From positions 186,001 through 250,000 of the IMG/VR virus record IMGVR_UViG_3300040801_001224: DNA of 64,000 nt. One strand, 5' to 3'. Source of the DNA: a virus. The position numbers and the translations under genes were made by a program. The notes under the pieces are model-generated. The model did not search any database. It was not told the origin of the DNA and was given only the letters and a program-made list of their open reading frames with translations. Each line of letters starts with the position of its first letter. Position 1 is the first letter of the stretch. Shown here one piece after another: positions 6,935-54,141 of this stretch.

Positions 6935-7202
6935 ATTTTACGCCTGAACGTTGTTTAGCATTCTCGCCCCCACGATACCCTGGAGTTTGAAATTCATCAT
7001 CTGGATTGTCATGTGGATCATTTGACCAGTGATCTTCTTCAGCAGGTTCTTTTGTGATTACCGGTGTTTCACCTTTAGATTTAGCCGCGATCTGTTGGTA
7101 ACGCTCTTCTTCATCATGTCGAGCGTCAGAATTTTCTGGATTGAATTGATCATCAATTTCATTCCAAACTTGATCAATATCGTAAATTTCTTTTATTTTC
7201 AT
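6885..7202 (-). CDS. Hypothetical charged protein, 105 aa
   Basis: Not recognised. Hydrophilic and probably largely disordered, with many D, E, H and Q. The start, MKIKEIYDIDQVWNE, fits the M(K/R)xx(E/D)(I/L) leader seen on several proteins here and may be a capsid-targeting sequence. A minus-strand late element (7241-7234) lies 31 bases upstream, fitting a packaged late protein. Confidence 0.7.
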   Translation of the reverse strand: MKIKEIYDIDQVWNEIDDQFNPENSDARHDEEERYQQIAAKSKGETPVITKEPAEEDHWSNDPHDNPDDEFQTPGYRGGENAKQRSGVKFKQYDRPGEHIRPMRT

Positions 7203-7203
7203 G

Positions 7204-7232
7204 TTGACAAAACCACTAAATTGTTATATAAT
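7204..7232 (+). promoter_or_regulatory. Sigma70-type promoter for clpP
   Basis: TTGACA (7204-7209), 17-base spacer starting aaaCCACT, TATAAT (7227-7232). Confidence 0.9.
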
Positions 7233-7233
7233 G

Positions 7234-7241
7234 TATTTATC
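7234..7241 (-). promoter_or_regulatory. Late promoter GATAAATA (minus strand)
   Basis: TATTTATC on the plus strand. It lies 31 bases upstream of the minus-strand gene starting at 7202 and within two bases of the divergent clpP -10 box, so early and late promoters sit back to back. Confidence 0.62.
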
Positions 7242-7267
7242 ACAATTATACTTAAAGGAGAAGTGAA

Positions 7268-7885
7268 ATGGGATTAGTTCCAATGGTAGTAGAGAAAACA
7301 TCACAGGGTGAGCGTTCTTTCGATATTTTTAGTAGGTTATTGAAAGAGAGGACGGTTTTCTTTACAGGTGAGGTACGTGATGAGATGGCCAATCTAATTG
7401 TAGCACAGTTACTTTATTTAGAAGCCGAAGCACCCGAAGCAGACATTACTCTTTATATTAACAGCCCAGGCGGATCGGTGAGTGCAGGCCTCGCTGTATA
7501 TGACACGATGCAATTTATTAAGCCAGACGTTTCTACAATCGTAGCAGGCCAAGCATGTTCGATGGGTTCTTTCATTGCTCAAGCAGGCGCACCTGGCAAG
7601 CGCATGGTATTGCCACAGTCAAGAACAATGGTTCACCGTGTTAGCTCAGGCACACCGGCTACTCGAGGCTCAGTCCACGTGATGGAACATGAATTTGAAG
7701 ACGCCAGGCGCTCATTTGAAGAGTCAAAGCGTGTTAATGAGATCCTTACTCAATTGTACGCCAAGCACAACACAAAAGGTCAGACTTACGAACAGTTGCT
7801 TGAAACCCTTAAATTTGACACCTACCTTTCGGCACAAGAAGCAGTCGACTTTGGGTTAGCTGATCAGATTATCACAAATCGATAA
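7268..7885 (+). CDS. clpP: ClpP, ATP-dependent Clp protease proteolytic subunit
   Basis: 205 residues, full length. The serine-protease triad is S98 (GQACSMGSF), H123 (SRTMVHRV) and D184 ([10 protein letters not shown]). The conserved [20 protein letters not shown] segment (62-81) and the IITNR end are present. ClpP forms a 14-subunit barrel fed by ClpA or ClpX. The first residues ([20 protein letters not shown]) match the usual N-terminal loop and processing region. AAGGAG lies six bases before the ATG. With ClpA and ClpS on the same phage, a complete phage protease is possible; it could also assemble with host ClpX or ClpA. Confidence 0.97.
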
Positions 7886-7913
7886 ATACTTGTAACATAC
7901 TATTATCACTTAT

Positions 7914-7941
7914 GACGGCGGAGCTTTTTCCGCCGTCTTTC
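7914..7941 (+). terminator. Rho-independent terminator after clpP
   Basis: GACGGCGG (7914-7921) pairs with CCGCCGTC (7930-7937), followed by TTTCT. Confidence 0.9.
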
Positions 7942-7942
7942 T

Positions 7943-7950
7943 GATAAATA
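7943..7950 (+). promoter_or_regulatory. Late promoter GATAAATA
   Basis: Exact element directly after the clpP terminator and 55 bases before the gene at 8006. Confidence 0.55.
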
Positions 7951-8005
7951 CAAATAAGTATATGCTCACAACACAAACTAAATCGCATATATTAAAGGGA
8001 ATGTC

Positions 8006-8344
8006 ATGGAAGAAATAACATGGCCTGTGGCTATAAGTGCCTTGGGTACACTCGTCGTAATTGCTACGTTTATGTTCAAATGGTTCAGTAAGGATCAGAA
8101 ACCTTGGACAAGTGATTTACAGAAAACCGAAGATGAACTTAACAGTGGAATTCGGAATTTGGAACACCGAACTACCGTATCAGAAGGCAAACAACAAGAA
8201 TTGATACGTCGAGTTAACGAACTTAAAGATGAGGTAAAAGCCCAGGGTGAAACCTCAGAAAAGAAGATTGAGAAAATCGAAGAAAAAGTCGAGAAGATCA
8301 CTCAACTTATGATTGACATCTTACAAAACACCAACACTAGATAA
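8006..8344 (+). CDS. Membrane-anchored coiled-coil protein, 112 aa
   Basis: One N-terminal hydrophobic segment (about residues 6-26, WPVAISALGTLVVIATFMF) followed by a long charged helix (residues 40-110) with heptad-like spacing, ending VEKITQLMIDILQN. The topology suits an inner-membrane protein with a coiled-coil domain. It could be a spanin- or holin-related lysis protein, but a better spanin pair is present at 25613-26442. The late element upstream fits a late role. Confidence 0.75.
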   Translation: MEEITWPVAISALGTLVVIATFMFKWFSKDQKPWTSDLQKTEDELNSGIRNLEHRTTVSEGKQQELIRRVNELKDEVKAQGETSEKKIEKIEEKVEKITQLMIDILQNTNTR

Positions 8345-8612
8345 ACGTTAGTGTTGCCGCTAAATAGTCCTCATTGTAGCGGAAGTAAATTTTTACTGAA
8401 TCATTACTGATATTTTGGCGAGTCCAATCAGTCCTACTTATATTGTTGTCCTTAATAAATTTCCAGAAAGAACGTAAACTTGTCCCAGGTATAGTGATTA
8501 CTCGATCCTGCCACTCCCTGCGCCATTGCTTGTAGACTTCGGCTCGGTGACCGATGTCATAGTCACCATCAAAATATTTTTGTATCTCTTCATCAGTATA
8601 TAACTTACTCAT
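8337..8612 (-). CDS. Hypothetical protein, 91 aa
   Basis: Begins MSKLYTDEEIQKYFDGDYDI; not recognised. A longer upstream frame exists, but the start at 8612 is chosen because a minus-strand promoter (-35 at 8647-8642, -10 at 8624-8619) puts transcription initiation at or just before this ATG, making the message near-leaderless. It converges with the preceding gene, overlapping by eight bases. Confidence 0.68.
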   Translation of the reverse strand: MSKLYTDEEIQKYFDGDYDIGHRAEVYKQWRREWQDRVITIPGTSLRSFWKFIKDNNISRTDWTRQNISNDSVKIYFRYNEDYLAATLTFI

Positions 8613-48872: not shown

Positions 48873-49241
48873 GTGGCAAAACATATCGTAATAGTAGACG
48901 ACGACCCTACGGTTATTCAGATACTAAAAGCGTTTATTCGCCAGGCCATTAATGGCAATGGTCATTACGATATTGTCACCTTTGATAACATAACTGAAGC
49001 CTGTGATTATATAACTGAACATCCTGTGGATTTATTATTCCAGGATGTTCACGTTCAAAGCGACTTAGACGGATTAATTGCCGCTCGAATAGCCAAAAAC
49101 TTTGGTGTTCCGGTAGTTGTTATCACTTCTGATATCTGTCTATCAATAGTTGAAAGAGTCGCTAAGGGTAGATACGACAAGCTAATACTAAAGCCCATCA
49201 GTATTGGTGAAGTGAAACACGCCCTAGATCTTTGTAAATAA
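48873..49241 (+). CDS. CheY-like response-regulator receiver protein
   Basis: 122 residues from a GTG start, one complete REC domain. Acidic pocket VDDD (8-11), phosphorylatable D58 (LLFQDVHV), T85 (VVVITSD) and K107 (LILKPIS) are all in place; FDNITEACDYI and the alternating strand/helix pattern fit CheY. No output domain is present. REC domains receive phosphate from histidine kinases; none is seen in the window, so the partner is probably a host kinase. Co-transcribed with the DsbA-like gene. Confidence 0.88.
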   Translation: MAKHIVIVDDDPTVIQILKAFIRQAINGNGHYDIVTFDNITEACDYITEHPVDLLFQDVHVQSDLDGLIAARIAKNFGVPVVVITSDICLSIVERVAKGRYDKLILKPISIGEVKHALDLCK

Positions 49242-49245
49242 TCAC

Positions 49246-49274
49246 TTGACAAAACCCCCGTTATATAGTATACT
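49246..49274 (+). promoter_or_regulatory. Sigma70-type promoter for DNA polymerase
   Basis: TTGACA (49246-49251), 17 bases, TATACT (49269-49274). Confidence 0.85.
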
Positions 49275-49300: not shown

Positions 49301-51670
49301 ATGTACGTACACGCACGATATTCTAAAGAAGAAGACATAATCAACATCGTTGAACGGGTAGACGGTGAAAGAGTTTATAAAGAATTTAAGCCCGACCATT
49401 CATTTTACGTTGAAGATCCACGTGGCACATATACGAGTATCTTTGGCGACACAATCACAAAGTTACAACCTAACAGCTACAAAGACAAGCGTAGGCTAGG
49501 CAAATTACATGGCGCAAAGAAAACATTTGAGTTTGACTTGCCACCAATTGCTCGTTGTATTGAACAACACTACAGTGACTCAGATCCCGCAGATTTACAT
49601 GTTGCTTTCTTCGATATTGAGACCGACTTCGACAAGGAGTTGGGCTACTCTAGTCCTGATGAAGCCTTTAATCCAATTACATCTATCGCTGTATATTTAC
49701 AGTGGATGGAGCAGATGATATGTCTAGCAGTTCCGCCCAAAACCCTAACCTGGGAAGAAGCACAGGAGATAGCAGGTGAAGTACCTGACGTTATTTTATG
49801 TAAAACAGAAAATGAAATGCTTCAGATGTTTTTAACAATTATTGATGACGCAGATGTGCTTAGTGGTTGGAACTCAGAATTTTACGATATTCCATACACA
49901 ATTCATAGAATTATGAATCAATTAGGAAAGCATGAAGCACGTAAAATGTGTTTATGGGATGAAATGCCACGCAAGAAGACCATTGAGCGTTTTGAAAAGC
50001 AGGAAGTAGTATATGAGTTAACTGGTCGTGTACATCTAGATTACTTAGAACTATACAAGAAGTACACATATGAGGAACGACAATCCTATAAACTGGATGC
50101 TATTGCTGAATTTGAGTTAGGTGAGAAAAAGGTCGAATATCCTGGAACACTTGATCAATTGTACAAAGAAGATTTTAAGAAGTTCCTGGAATACAACATC
50201 CAGGATACCATGCTCCTGGAAAAGCTGGATAAAAAATTAGACTTTATATCACTAGCCAACACAATTGCCCTGGGCTCAAGCGTATTGATGCCAGCAACGA
50301 TGGGTGCGGTAGCAGTAACAGAACAATCCATCATTAAAGAAGCGCACAGACGTGACATGATGGTGCCTGACAAGAAGCAAGGCGATAAAGGTGATACCCG
50401 AGCGGCAGGGGGCTGGGTACAGCAACCTAAGAAAGGCTTACATCATTGGGTAGGCAGTTCGGATTTGAACTCACTGTATCCATCAGTTATCCGTGCGTTA
50501 AATATGAGTCCAGAAACAATTGTGGGACAGCTAGTAACTGACAAGACGAATCAGGAAATTGCTGAATGGATTGCCAGTGCTAAGTCACGTACTTTCGCAG
50601 GATGGTGGAATGATAAATTTAATACCCTGGAGATGGATGATTTTATCAACAAGAACAGTAGTAACAAACACACATTCCAGATGGAGGATGGCTCAAAGAG
50701 TCCTATAACTGGCGCAGAGTTACATGAGATTGTTTTTAAGAGTGGGCAACCCTGGTGTATTAGTGCTAACGGCACAATATTTAGGACAGACATTGATGGT
50801 ATTATTCCTGGACTACTAGCAGGCTGGTACGCAGATCGTAAAGCAATGAAGAAAATTCTCTGGAATCTAATTCAATTGCGTACGGGTCTAATCGATGCTA
50901 AAATTGACAACTCTGATATTACAGTGCCAAGCGAAGTGCCTAACTTGCGTAAACTGGCATATGGTGAGCTTGACAAGTGCTTTGAATTGGAAGGCTCTGA
51001 ACGTGCGGCATTTGCCAGCAAGTTTGGGTTAGAAGTTAGAGACGGAAAGTTTTGGGCAAGAGATGAATTTGTTAAAGACTACAAAGACGCTGAAGGCTAC
51101 TGGGACAAACGTCAGCTGGTACGTAAGATTAACCTTAACTCACTATACGGCGGATTGCTTAATGAGCATTGTAGATTTTATGACCATAGATTAGGACAAT
51201 CAACTACACTAACCGGACGTAGTATTACAAGACATATGGCGGCAAAAACAAATGAATTTTTAACTGGTGAATACTCAGAGAAAGGCAAGACTATTATATA
51301 TGGTGACACCGACAGTCTGACAGGTGATTCGATTATTGAAACTTCATTAGGTCAGATGACCATCGAAGAATTGTACGAAAAATGTGAATCATATACAGAA
51401 AACGAAGACAAAGAATATGGGCATGATAATGATATGATGGTCATGTCGTATGATGAAAGTAGAGATGAACCATACATGGGACACTTCGATTATGTGTACC
51501 GCCATAAAGTGTCAAAAGATTTATATGAAATAGAAGATGATAACGGCAACGTAGTGACTGTGACAGAAGATCATTCGGTTATGGTTGAGCGTGATGGAAA
51601 GTTAATAGAAATGAAGCCAGCAGATATACAGGAAGCCGATATCATTATTTCACTTGAAATTACTAAATAA
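49301..51670 (+). CDS. Family B DNA polymerase, N-terminal piece fused to split-intein N half
   Basis: 789 residues; 1-671 are polymerase. Exonuclease motifs FFDIETD (D105, E107), SGWNSEFYDIPY and EYNIQDTMLLEKL; polymerase motif A SSDLNSLYPSVIR (D388), motif B KINLNSLYGGL, and the first part of motif C, YGDTD. The chain then continues into an intein N half and stops. Trans-splicing with the product of 52658-53770 would join YGDTD to SVYFSAY and restore motif C. Combined length is 965, against 898 in T4 gp43. Neither piece alone has a full active site. Confidence 0.95.
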   Translation: MYVHARYSKEEDIINIVERVDGERVYKEFKPDHSFYVEDPRGTYTSIFGDTITKLQPNSYKDKRRLGKLHGAKKTFEFDLPPIARCIEQHYSDSDPADLHVAFFDIETDFDKELGYSSPDEAFNPITSIAVYLQWMEQMICLAVPPKTLTWEEAQEIAGEVPDVILCKTENEMLQMFLTIIDDADVLSGWNSEFYDIPYTIHRIMNQLGKHEARKMCLWDEMPRKKTIERFEKQEVVYELTGRVHLDYLELYKKYTYEERQSYKLDAIAEFELGEKKVEYPGTLDQLYKEDFKKFLEYNIQDTMLLEKLDKKLDFISLANTIALGSSVLMPATMGAVAVTEQSIIKEAHRRDMMVPDKKQGDKGDTRAAGGWVQQPKKGLHHWVGSSDLNSLYPSVIRALNMSPETIVGQLVTDKTNQEIAEWIASAKSRTFAGWWNDKFNTLEMDDFINKNSSNKHTFQMEDGSKSPITGAELHEIVFKSGQPWCISANGTIFRTDIDGIIPGLLAGWYADRKAMKKILWNLIQLRTGLIDAKIDNSDITVPSEVPNLRKLAYGELDKCFELEGSERAAFASKFGLEVRDGKFWARDEFVKDYKDAEGYWDKRQLVRKINLNSLYGGLLNEHCRFYDHRLGQSTTLTGRSITRHMAAKTNEFLTGEYSEKGKTIIYGDTDSLTGDSIIETSLGQMTIEELYEKCESYTENEDKEYGHDNDMMVMSYDESRDEPYMGHFDYVYRHKVSKDLYEIEDDNGNVVTVTEDHSVMVERDGKLIEMKPADIQEADIIISLEITK
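51314..51667 (+). other. Split-intein N half (118 aa) in DNA polymerase motif C
   Basis: Starts at Ser (SLTGDSIIETSLGQMTIEEL) after YGDTD and carries block B VTVTEDHSVMV with the T-x-x-H motif. It ends at the stop codon. Insertion at D|S of YGDTDS is the classic pol-c intein site. Ser1 with TxxH makes it a class 1 intein. Confidence 0.9.
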
Positions 51671-51671
51671 T

Positions 51672-51679
51672 GGTAAATA
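51672..51679 (+). promoter_or_regulatory. Late promoter variant GGTAAATA
   Basis: Two bases after the polymerase N-piece stop and 29 bases before the endonuclease ATG. Confidence 0.6.
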
Positions 51680-51708
51680 CTATGGAGCTTGTTGCGTAAA
51701 GGAGTATT

Positions 51709-52668
51709 ATGCCGAAATGTTTAGAATGTGGTTTTGAAGCACCACGACTACAATGGACACACTTCCGATACAAATGTACCGGAAAATTTAAGAACGGCCG
51801 CGAGTATATGGCGGCATATCCGGGCGCAAAGGTAGTTGATGATGATTTGGCCAAAAAGACTGCGGTGACTGAAGAAAATCTTATCAAAAAATATGGTGAA
51901 GAAGAAGGCATTCAACGATTCAAGGAATACAAGGAAAAACAAGCGTACACTAACAGTCTCGAATATAAGGCAGAAAAAAATGGCTGGACAAAAAGCCAAT
52001 TTGATGAGTATAACCAAAGTAGAGCATGTACGTTGGAAAATTTAATCGAACGTCATGGCGAAGAAGTTGGTGTAGCTAAATGGGATGATTATATTGAGCG
52101 ACAACGTTATACAACTACAATCGAATATTTCAAAGAAAAATATGGTGCGGAAGGTGAAGAAAAATGGAATGAATTCTGTCGTGAACGAGGCAAATCAAGC
52201 AGTATAGAATTTATTCAGAAAAAATATAATGTAACAAAAGAAGAAGCCGAAACACTATTGGCTGGAAGATACCGTAATAGATATACTTCACAGATGGAAA
52301 TGGACTTCGTTGATGATATCCAAAAATGTGTAGGTGATATTAAATATACGGCACAAACGAACCAATTCTGTATATGGTCATATGAGTTAGATGCTCCTGT
52401 ATTTTATGATGTAGTTGATAGTGATAAAATGAAAGTTATAGAATTCAATGGTGATTATTGGCATCAAAACCCAAAGAAATATTCGGCTGATTCAAAAATA
52501 TCTCAATCTGGAAAAACCGCCAAAGATGTGTGGGAAAGAGACAGGATAAAATTAAATGAAGCTAAGAAACGCGGTTTTGATGTTATGGTAGTGTGGGAAA
52601 GTGATTATCAAAATAATCCAACTCAAGTATTAGATAATGTGGTGAAGTGGTGGAATAATGAAGGATAA
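51709..52668 (+). CDS. Free-standing Vsr-like (EDxHD-family) homing endonuclease between split-intein halves
   Basis: 319 residues. N-terminal Cys/His finger (CLECGFEAPRLQWTHFRYKC), repeats such as TEENLIKKYGEEEGIQRFKE and TLENLIERHGEEVGVAKWDD, then a Vsr-like nuclease core: VIEFNGDYWHQNPKKY and DVWERDRIKLNEAKKRGFDV plus MVVWESDY. The E-x(n)-D-Y-W-H pattern fits the EDxHD enzymes described in fractured genes with split inteins. It overlaps the downstream intein-C gene by 11 bases and has a late promoter and AAGGAG. It probably spreads the insertion among phages. Confidence 0.88.
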   Translation: MPKCLECGFEAPRLQWTHFRYKCTGKFKNGREYMAAYPGAKVVDDDLAKKTAVTEENLIKKYGEEEGIQRFKEYKEKQAYTNSLEYKAEKNGWTKSQFDEYNQSRACTLENLIERHGEEVGVAKWDDYIERQRYTTTIEYFKEKYGAEGEEKWNEFCRERGKSSSIEFIQKKYNVTKEEAETLLAGRYRNRYTSQMEMDFVDDIQKCVGDIKYTAQTNQFCIWSYELDAPVFYDVVDSDKMKVIEFNGDYWHQNPKKYSADSKISQSGKTAKDVWERDRIKLNEAKKRGFDVMVVWESDYQNNPTQVLDNVVKWWNNEG

Positions 52669-52885
52669 GTTGTTAAATATATTAAAAGCTAAAACTCCAG
52701 AAGAAGTTGATAAAGCCAGTAGAGAGTTTATGTCAAATGTGGGTACAGATCAGATATCATTAAAGCGAGCTAAAGTTAGAAAAGTTAGAAAAGTTAGAAA
52801 AGCAAATGATGAATATGTATATGATGTGGGTATGAAAAATAAAAATCATCCATGGTTTTTTGCGAATAATATCCTTGTCCACAAC
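52658..52885 (+). other. Split-intein C half (76 aa)
   Basis: Block F EYVYDVGMKNKNHPWFFANN and block G NILVHN are intact. About 35 extra residues (MKDKLLNILKAKTPEEVDKA onward) precede the usual C-half core, longer than most natural split-intein C halves. Confidence 0.88.
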
Positions 52886-53770
52886 TCAGTTTATTTTTCA
52901 GCATACCCAGCGTATAAAGAGCAGATTGAAGCAGGTGAACTGGAATGGAATAAAGAAAAGGCTGTTGAACTGTATGATGAAATATCTTCAATGGTGAGTG
53001 ACACGTTCCCGCAGTTTATGTTGGATGCGTTTAATGTACCCTATGCGAGATCTGAAGGTGTTATTGCCGCAGGTCGTGAAATTGTAGCAAGCACAGGCTT
53101 GTTTATTAAGAAGAAACGTTATGCGGCAATGGTGTATGACAACGAGGGTGAACGCAAGGATGTAGATGGTAAGCCGGGTAAAATGAAAGCAATGGGCCTG
53201 GATCTAAGACGTGCTGACACACCGGTATTCGTACAAGAGTTCCTATCCAAAGTATTAACAATGGTGTTAACAGAACACACTGAAGAAGAATGTATCCAGT
53301 TCATCAAGGAATTTAAGGAATTGTATGACGACATGGCACCCTGGGAAAAGGGTACACCCAAAGCAGTAAACGGCGTAACCAAGTACATGAATAAGATTGA
53401 AGAACGTAATAAGCAGATTGCCCGTGGCCAAACGCCTAAGACTCTAATGGTTCCCGGTCACGTACAAGGCAGTTTCAACTGGAACTTATTGCGTGAGCGT
53501 CACAATGACTTACACAGAGCAAAGATCACAGACGGATCAAAGGTGATATTGTGTTACTTAAAGGATAATGATTATAAATTTAAGAACATTGCTTATCCTG
53601 TAGAAGAAAACCATTTGCCAGACTGGTTCTTAGAACTTCCATTTGATGAAGAACGCATGATGGAGAGTGGTGTGGATAAGAAAATTGAGAATATGCTTGG
53701 CGTAATGAAGTGGGATTTAAGCAAAGCAAGTAAACAAGCAGATCACTTTGGATCACTATTTGAATTTTAG
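52658..53770 (+). CDS. Split-intein C half plus DNA polymerase C-terminal piece
   Basis: 370 residues. Residues 1-76 form the intein C half, ending NILVHN; residue 77 is the +1 Ser of SVYFSAY, completing polymerase motif C. The C-extein (294 residues) holds the thumb: IVASTGLFIKKKRYAAMVYD (the KKRY motif), KAMGLDLRRADTPVFVQEFL and a C-terminal DHFGSLFEF. The GSLFEF end resembles the clamp-binding tail of T4 polymerase. The gene's own Shine-Dalgarno site is weak, so translation may be coupled to the endonuclease. Confidence 0.94.
   Translation: MKDKLLNILKAKTPEEVDKASREFMSNVGTDQISLKRAKVRKVRKVRKANDEYVYDVGMKNKNHPWFFANNILVHNSVYFSAYPAYKEQIEAGELEWNKEKAVELYDEISSMVSDTFPQFMLDAFNVPYARSEGVIAAGREIVASTGLFIKKKRYAAMVYDNEGERKDVDGKPGKMKAMGLDLRRADTPVFVQEFLSKVLTMVLTEHTEEECIQFIKEFKELYDDMAPWEKGTPKAVNGVTKYMNKIEERNKQIARGQTPKTLMVPGHVQGSFNWNLLRERHNDLHRAKITDGSKVILCYLKDNDYKFKNIAYPVEENHLPDWFLELPFDEERMMESGVDKKIENMLGVMKWDLSKASKQADHFGSLFEF
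52772..52798 (+). repeat. Three tandem 9-bp units in the intein C half
   Basis: AAAGTTAGA three times in a row, encoding KVRKVRKVR at residues 39-47. Identical at the nucleotide level, so recent. Confidence 0.85.
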
Positions 53771-54112: not shown

Positions 54113-54141
54113 TTGACACAACCAATACACTATGTTATAAT
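54113..54141 (+). promoter_or_regulatory. Sigma70-type promoter for the sliding clamp
   Basis: TTGACA (54113-54118), 17 bases, TATAAT (54136-54141). Spacer starts caaCCAa. Confidence 0.92.

Follow-up and report, generated by a model that had tools for sequence, protein, structure and literature searches.

We analysed a 64,000-nucleotide stretch (positions 186001–250000, hereafter the window) of the 328,096-bp IMG/VR virus record IMGVR_UViG_3300040801_001224, which is linear and possibly incomplete. We are highly confident that the window carries a fractured gene for a replicative DNA polymerase, the halves of which are joined by a split intein, and that an endonuclease encoded in the break serves as the engine of mobility. 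This reading is built on sequence, homology, fold, gene order, recurrence of the arrangement and horizontal movement of the cassette in relatives. The first open reading frame (ORF), PolN (49301..51670, 789 aa; this and all features below are on the + strand), encodes the N-terminal portion of a family B DNA polymerase (PolB) resembling T4 gp43 (phrog_262, E=3e-144), followed by the N-terminal intein half, Int-N. PolC (52658..53770, 370 aa) opens with the C-terminal intein half, Int-C, and continues into the C-terminal portion of the polymerase. The N-extein (49301..51313, 671 aa) contains the exonuclease and the palm/fingers motifs up to the YGDTD of motif C and aligns with intact PolB, and the C-extein (52886..53767, 294 aa) runs from Ser+1 (SVYFSAY) through KKKRY and the thumb. 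Joined, the two exteins make 965 aa (671 + 294) and align across 965 columns, full length, to intact polymerases. PolB, a conserved enzyme gene, is broken here at a single point, with a matching intein half at the end of PolN and the start of PolC and a free-standing endonuclease ORF between them. PolN and PolC are separate ORFs that coincidentally share a frame (modulo 3), and all three ORFs are open and full length. Pfam models matched PolN as family B polymerase (E=3e-23) and intein splicing domain (E=3.9e-8), and PolC as family B polymerase (E=3.5e-8) and intein C end (E=0.004), and these profile matches show that the intein and polymerase parts are not chance resemblances. The initial annotation of the window had placed a split intein in motif C of PolB, and its coordinates and residues held, with the Pfam, TIGR01445 and 9HTH matches in agreement. 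It had also raised the prospect of an intact polymerase elsewhere in the same genome; we found no second polymerase of family B (PF00136) or family A (PF00476) elsewhere in the 328-kb record.

Int-N (51314..51667, 118 aa) begins with Ser1 and contains blocks A, N2, B (TEDH) and N4. It was recognized by Pfam and by TIGR01445 (intein_Nterm; 36.2 bits, above the cut-off of 24.5), and its top PDB match was the PolB1 split intein of Aeromonas phage Aes123 (9HTH, E=5e-14). Int-C (52658..52885, 76 aa) carries blocks F and G and ends in VHN. The class 1 splicing residues are all kept in the window: Ser1 (SLTGD...), TEDH, VHN/S and Ser+1. The insertion site is YGDTD/S (slashes mark intein–extein boundaries) and the downstream junction is VHN/SVYF, so the intein does not lie between YGD and TDS, as does the pol-c allele. 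The net charges of the halves, −21 for Int-N and +8 for Int-C as calculated from sequence, are in keeping with electrostatic capture, which has been described for split inteins (PMC11923092). The first 32 aa of Int-C (52658..52753) form an N-terminal extension that belongs to one subfamily, being common to the window, the Pseudomonas phage PA5oct and several other loci, and it is also present within the contiguous intein of locus L100 of the survey described below. Since the extension is shared with PA5oct and sits inside a contiguous intein, we regard it as a subfamily trait rather than a by-product of one particular endonuclease. A structure model of the L100 intein (pLDDT 87) adopts a Hint fold with 9HTH as its best fold match, and in it the extension appears as two helices located at the split position. 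In this model the corresponding junction of L100 has strands on either side, and by homology the window intein is split at the endonuclease insertion position of the Hint fold.

At the Aes123 locus, a putative VSR endonuclease lies between gp43B1, which bears an N-intein, and gp43B2, which bears a C-intein; the PolB1 intein splices in trans, and its fused form has been solved (PDB 9HTH; PMC11923092). Gene 43 of Aes123 and Aes508 is like the window in its enzyme, DTD/S site, Ser1 and Ser+1, homologous intein, gene order and short overlaps between genes, and the Aes123 site, YIDTD/S...VHN/SVYL, is the window's insertion site. Their Vsr-type endonuclease belongs to the same family as the window's (32% identity over 82%), and Int-N is ~33% identical. 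Gene 43 of these phages differs from the window in an additional intein-free break (gp43A), and the Aes123 Int-C, at 39 aa, is without the 32-aa extension. By homology to this proven relative, the window intein would be expected to splice in trans.

The same layout is found in the isolated phages PA5oct, MIJ3, KP13-7, phiKp_21, PTm1 and VPALA. In Pseudomonas PA5oct, MIJ3 and related records, PolN carries Int-N and is ~52.7% identical to that of the window; in PA5oct and MIJ3 an endonuclease gene and then Int-C/PolC lie 3′ of it. The jumbo phages PA5oct and MIJ3 are the nearest isolated relatives (52.7% over PolN) and share the insertion site and the Int-C extension with the window, but their endonuclease is a different protein of 560 aa. 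Klebsiella KP13-7 and phiKp_21 have the fractured layout with an endonuclease of the window's family, and the layouts of Aeromonas Aes508, Tenacibaculum PTm1 and Vibrio VPALA agree with that of Aes123. The initial annotation had likened the arrangement to one described for other genes. The kind is in fact already known for PolB itself and carried by isolated phages, having been annotated for PolB in Aeromonas phages and published for the split DNA polymerase B of MIJ3 as a split intein with endonuclease (PMC6892783). Other PolB inteins are found in motif C as well, namely the contiguous mini-intein of Salicola SCTP-2, whose Int-N is 41% identical to the window's, and the pol-c inteins of Mimivirus and Nanoarchaeum. 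All three lie at YGD/TDS, two residues upstream of the window's YGDTD/S, and those of SCTP-2 and Mimivirus are contiguous whereas the window's is split. The polymerase of Sinorhizobium Phosso is without an intein. In the fractured genes of Dassa et al. (2009), a split intein reportedly interrupts a gene for a DNA-metabolism enzyme, and a separate gene for a Vsr-like endonuclease sits between the two halves; they show no difference in kind from the window, whose fractured gene is a PolB and belongs to a jumbo phage.

The ORF in the break (51709..52668, 319 aa) encodes a free-standing Vsr/EDxHD-type homing endonuclease with a CxxC...H...C N-terminus, helical repeats and a C-terminal Vsr-like nuclease (IEFNGDYWH). 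Its structure model (pLDDT 93) matched 1cw0 (Vsr) and 3r3p (the I-Bth0305I catalytic domain) with probability 1.00 but E of only 0.03–0.07, modest values that are to be expected where the nuclease domain makes up little of the whole chain; these fold matches bear out the type assigned in the initial annotation. The closest viral structure model is the Aes123 VSR endonuclease (E=7e-21). The EFNGDYWH motif is invariant in 34 relatives, as are E245, D249 and H252, so that a Vsr-like fold is accompanied by conserved acidic and His residues. The PA5oct protein has only a short Vsr-like stretch in common with the window's endonuclease (E=0.003), so the endonuclease at this position has been exchanged between lineages. 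The window endonuclease would most probably cleave polymerase alleles that lack the intein, close to motif C. Neither a second copy of the endonuclease nor a further intein was found in the 328-kb record, and an Rfam search of the window region gave no intron or other RNA element.

A survey of IMG/VR, comprising three scans and a classification of the loci (L numbers), recovered more than 100 fractured PolB loci scattered among intact relatives. Two insertion sites occur, two residues apart, of which YGD/TDS is the commonest and YGDTD/S is that of the window. In an extein-only tree of 146 polymerases, with sampling biased by the queries and approximate FastTree support, well-supported branches carry no fewer than 26 changes of the intact state, and the window falls within a 14-member clade that includes 8 intact polymerases. 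Pairs of loci such as L154/L156 and L177/L186 have cassettes of 1.4–1.5 kb that are 99.7% identical, while the flanking polymerase DNA is only 67/81% and 83/75% identical, an upstream divergence of 17–33%, with identity dropping within 10–45 bp of the insertion points. Synonymous divergence in these pairs is about zero in the cassette and >1 or saturated in the exteins. Such near-identical cassettes in diverged polymerases indicate that homing carries Int-N, the endonuclease and Int-C along as a unit, and they give the entire split-intein cassette of relatives a signature of homing. A further pair joins a contiguous intein (L120) to a fractured one (L126): Int-N and Int-C are 96% and 91% identical in DNA, and the endonuclease has been cleanly inserted or deleted between the loci. 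The exteins are only 59–66% identical, and a similar intein in diverged exteins makes transfer together with gain or loss of the endonuclease a better reading than a simple deletion in a single lineage. Contiguous inteins also occur in L023, L027 and L100, and some split inteins are free of an endonuclease, a truncated remnant of which persists in certain loci (L011, L093; in L138, where the insertion is at site 2, the gap is 4 nt). Together these observations make it likely, in our judgement, that the split intein and free-standing endonuclease are a mobile unit that homes as one cassette into motif C, that the endonuclease can subsequently disappear or be exchanged, that the intein can exist in contiguous or split form, and that breaking and rejoining of the polymerase is reversible within the homing cycle, of which the window represents one stage.

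The endonuclease could instead be an unrelated free-standing gene that came to lie in the break by chance and has no part in moving the intein. The split inteins with no endonuclease or only a remnant of one, and the different architecture of the PA5oct endonuclease, could be read in this way. We consider it improbable, since the cassettes that are 99.7% identical between diverged polymerases include the endonuclease, and since the window's endonuclease family occupies the same position in most survey loci. Still less likely, we think, is that the polymerase pieces remain unspliced and act as a non-covalent two-subunit polymerase, the intein halves being remnants. Intein-free PolB breaks of the gp43A/gp43B type are known, as in Atu_ph07, and the survey holds others upstream in L123, L173 and further loci. 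The break in the window, however, sits inside the catalytic motif itself, all splicing residues are kept, and the same-site relative Aes123 splices in trans (PMC11923092). The intein halves of relatives are also under constraint, with dN/dS about 0.03–0.07 from few measurable pairs and many values saturated; these were computed on relatives only, as those of the window are too distant. An assembly or frameshift artefact, the former raised as a possibility in the initial annotation and favoured by the record being a metagenomic virus contig, has a negligible chance of being correct given three open, full-length ORFs and a layout repeated in independently sequenced isolates and many contigs.

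Several points weigh against a fractured, spliced and mobile polymerase gene in the window. Because the record is linear and perhaps incomplete, a second polymerase may lie outside it. The window cassette is without a near-identical copy elsewhere, its closest endonuclease being 57% identical, and the homing signature is that of its relatives only. Finally, the endonuclease did not pass the curated Vsr sequence models (TIGR00632, 17.1 versus 97.85 bits; MTES_1575, 23.3 versus 38.2 bits), and as these models of mismatch-repair Vsr failed, we file it as Vsr-like only and not as a Vsr repair enzyme.

The initial annotation had the polymerase assembled by trans-splicing from two messages. Assembly from two pieces stands as the expected outcome, by homology to Aes123 PolB1; two messages find no support. 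A sigma-70-type promoter-like site (TTGACA-17-TATACT, 11/12 matches; 49246..49274), 26 nt 5′ of PolN, is the probable promoter of the unit, and the next such site (TTGACA-17-TATAAT, 12/12 matches; 54113..54141) marks its downstream boundary, so that nearby sites scoring 11 or 12/12 lie only upstream of PolN and downstream of PolC. A promoter of PolC's own was considered and rejected, as sites like the highest-scoring one inside the unit (52415, 10/12) are no commoner than chance predicts (18 observed against 19.6 expected). The endonuclease is preceded by a ribosome-binding-site-like AAAGGAG (51698..51704), and there is an 11-nt overlap between its stop and the start of PolC (ATGAAGGATAA, 52658..52668), which probably couples their translation; a stop/start overlap of endonuclease and PolC is present in 50 of the 57 Vsr-type loci with an assigned site. 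The lack of a strong internal promoter-like site and this overlap point to a single transcript with coupled translation, probably the simplest reading of the sequence and a likelier one than two messages. We propose that one transcript would give three proteins: PolN, which ends in Int-N, the homing endonuclease, and PolC, which opens with Int-C. The acidic Int-N and the basic Int-C would associate and fold into a single intein; class 1 splicing through Ser1, the terminal Asn and Ser+1 would then excise it and ligate PolN to PolC. Ligation would restore motif C (YGDTDSVYF) and the active site, and presumably polymerase activity, in a predicted product of 965 aa. Where the endonuclease cuts an intein-less allele, the whole Int-N/endonuclease/Int-C cassette would be copied in.

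The novel part, judging priority from a limited literature search, is the evidence that a fractured cassette moves as a unit. With the window, a jumbo phage joins the known cases, its intein occupying the site of one whose splicing has been proven by experiment, and another split intein with a Ser nucleophile becomes available. The survey supplies naturally occurring pairs that differ in having or lacking the insert, diverged polymerases that share almost identical cassettes, and a single intein in both contiguous and split versions, which make the origin and spread of split inteins directly testable.

Several further arrangements were seen among the surveyed polymerases. In L011-L229, homologous inteins occupy sites two codons apart, with a Thr or Ser +1 nucleophile to match the site. 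The PolB intein of Campylobacter phage CP21 (L233) is split around an endonuclease gene, and a closely similar intein in CC_R7 (L237) is in one piece. Three polymerases hold two inteins each (L110:5759-7969; L135:4240-6879 and 6986-7981; L151:5537-6076 and 6989-8515), arranged as YGD/intein 1/TD/intein 2/S, with one or both contiguous or split; the Thr-Asp extein includes the second Asp of motif C, and a limited literature search found no report of two inteins separated by a Thr-Asp extein. Group I introns (Rfam RF00028, 95–106 bits) lie near motif B of the polymerase gene in loci that also have a split intein and further breaks (L093:6100-6314, L107:6048-6260, L115:5046-5284, L137:5117-5335, L156:4183-4397 and L164:4179-4395). 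An additional upstream polymerase break without an intein is present in L123, L173, L115, L198, L126 and L110, holding an extra endonuclease ORF in L123 and L173; these breaks resemble gp43A/gp43B and Atu_ph07.

Directly 5′ of the polymerase, at 48873-49241 of the window, is a gene for a response-regulator receiver (CheY-like) domain protein (Pfam E=1e-13). A hairpin 5′ of the window endonuclease was only moderate (z −2.45), and we do not claim it as a control element. Strong RNA hairpins (z about −4.4) lie between the Int-N stop and the endonuclease start in L126:4430-4510 and L098:5960-6040 and possibly control the endonuclease there. Across the + strand of the window, 19 promoter-like sites scored at least 11/12 where 2.0 were expected (~10x enrichment), and 13 are perfect TTGACA/TATAAT sites, nearly all with 17-nt spacers (326, 3107, 5131, 7204, 8651, 16088, 18844, 19635, 27080, 48532, 54113, 58805 and 63377). 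This excess suggests, from sequence, that host sigma-70 promoters are distributed across the window.

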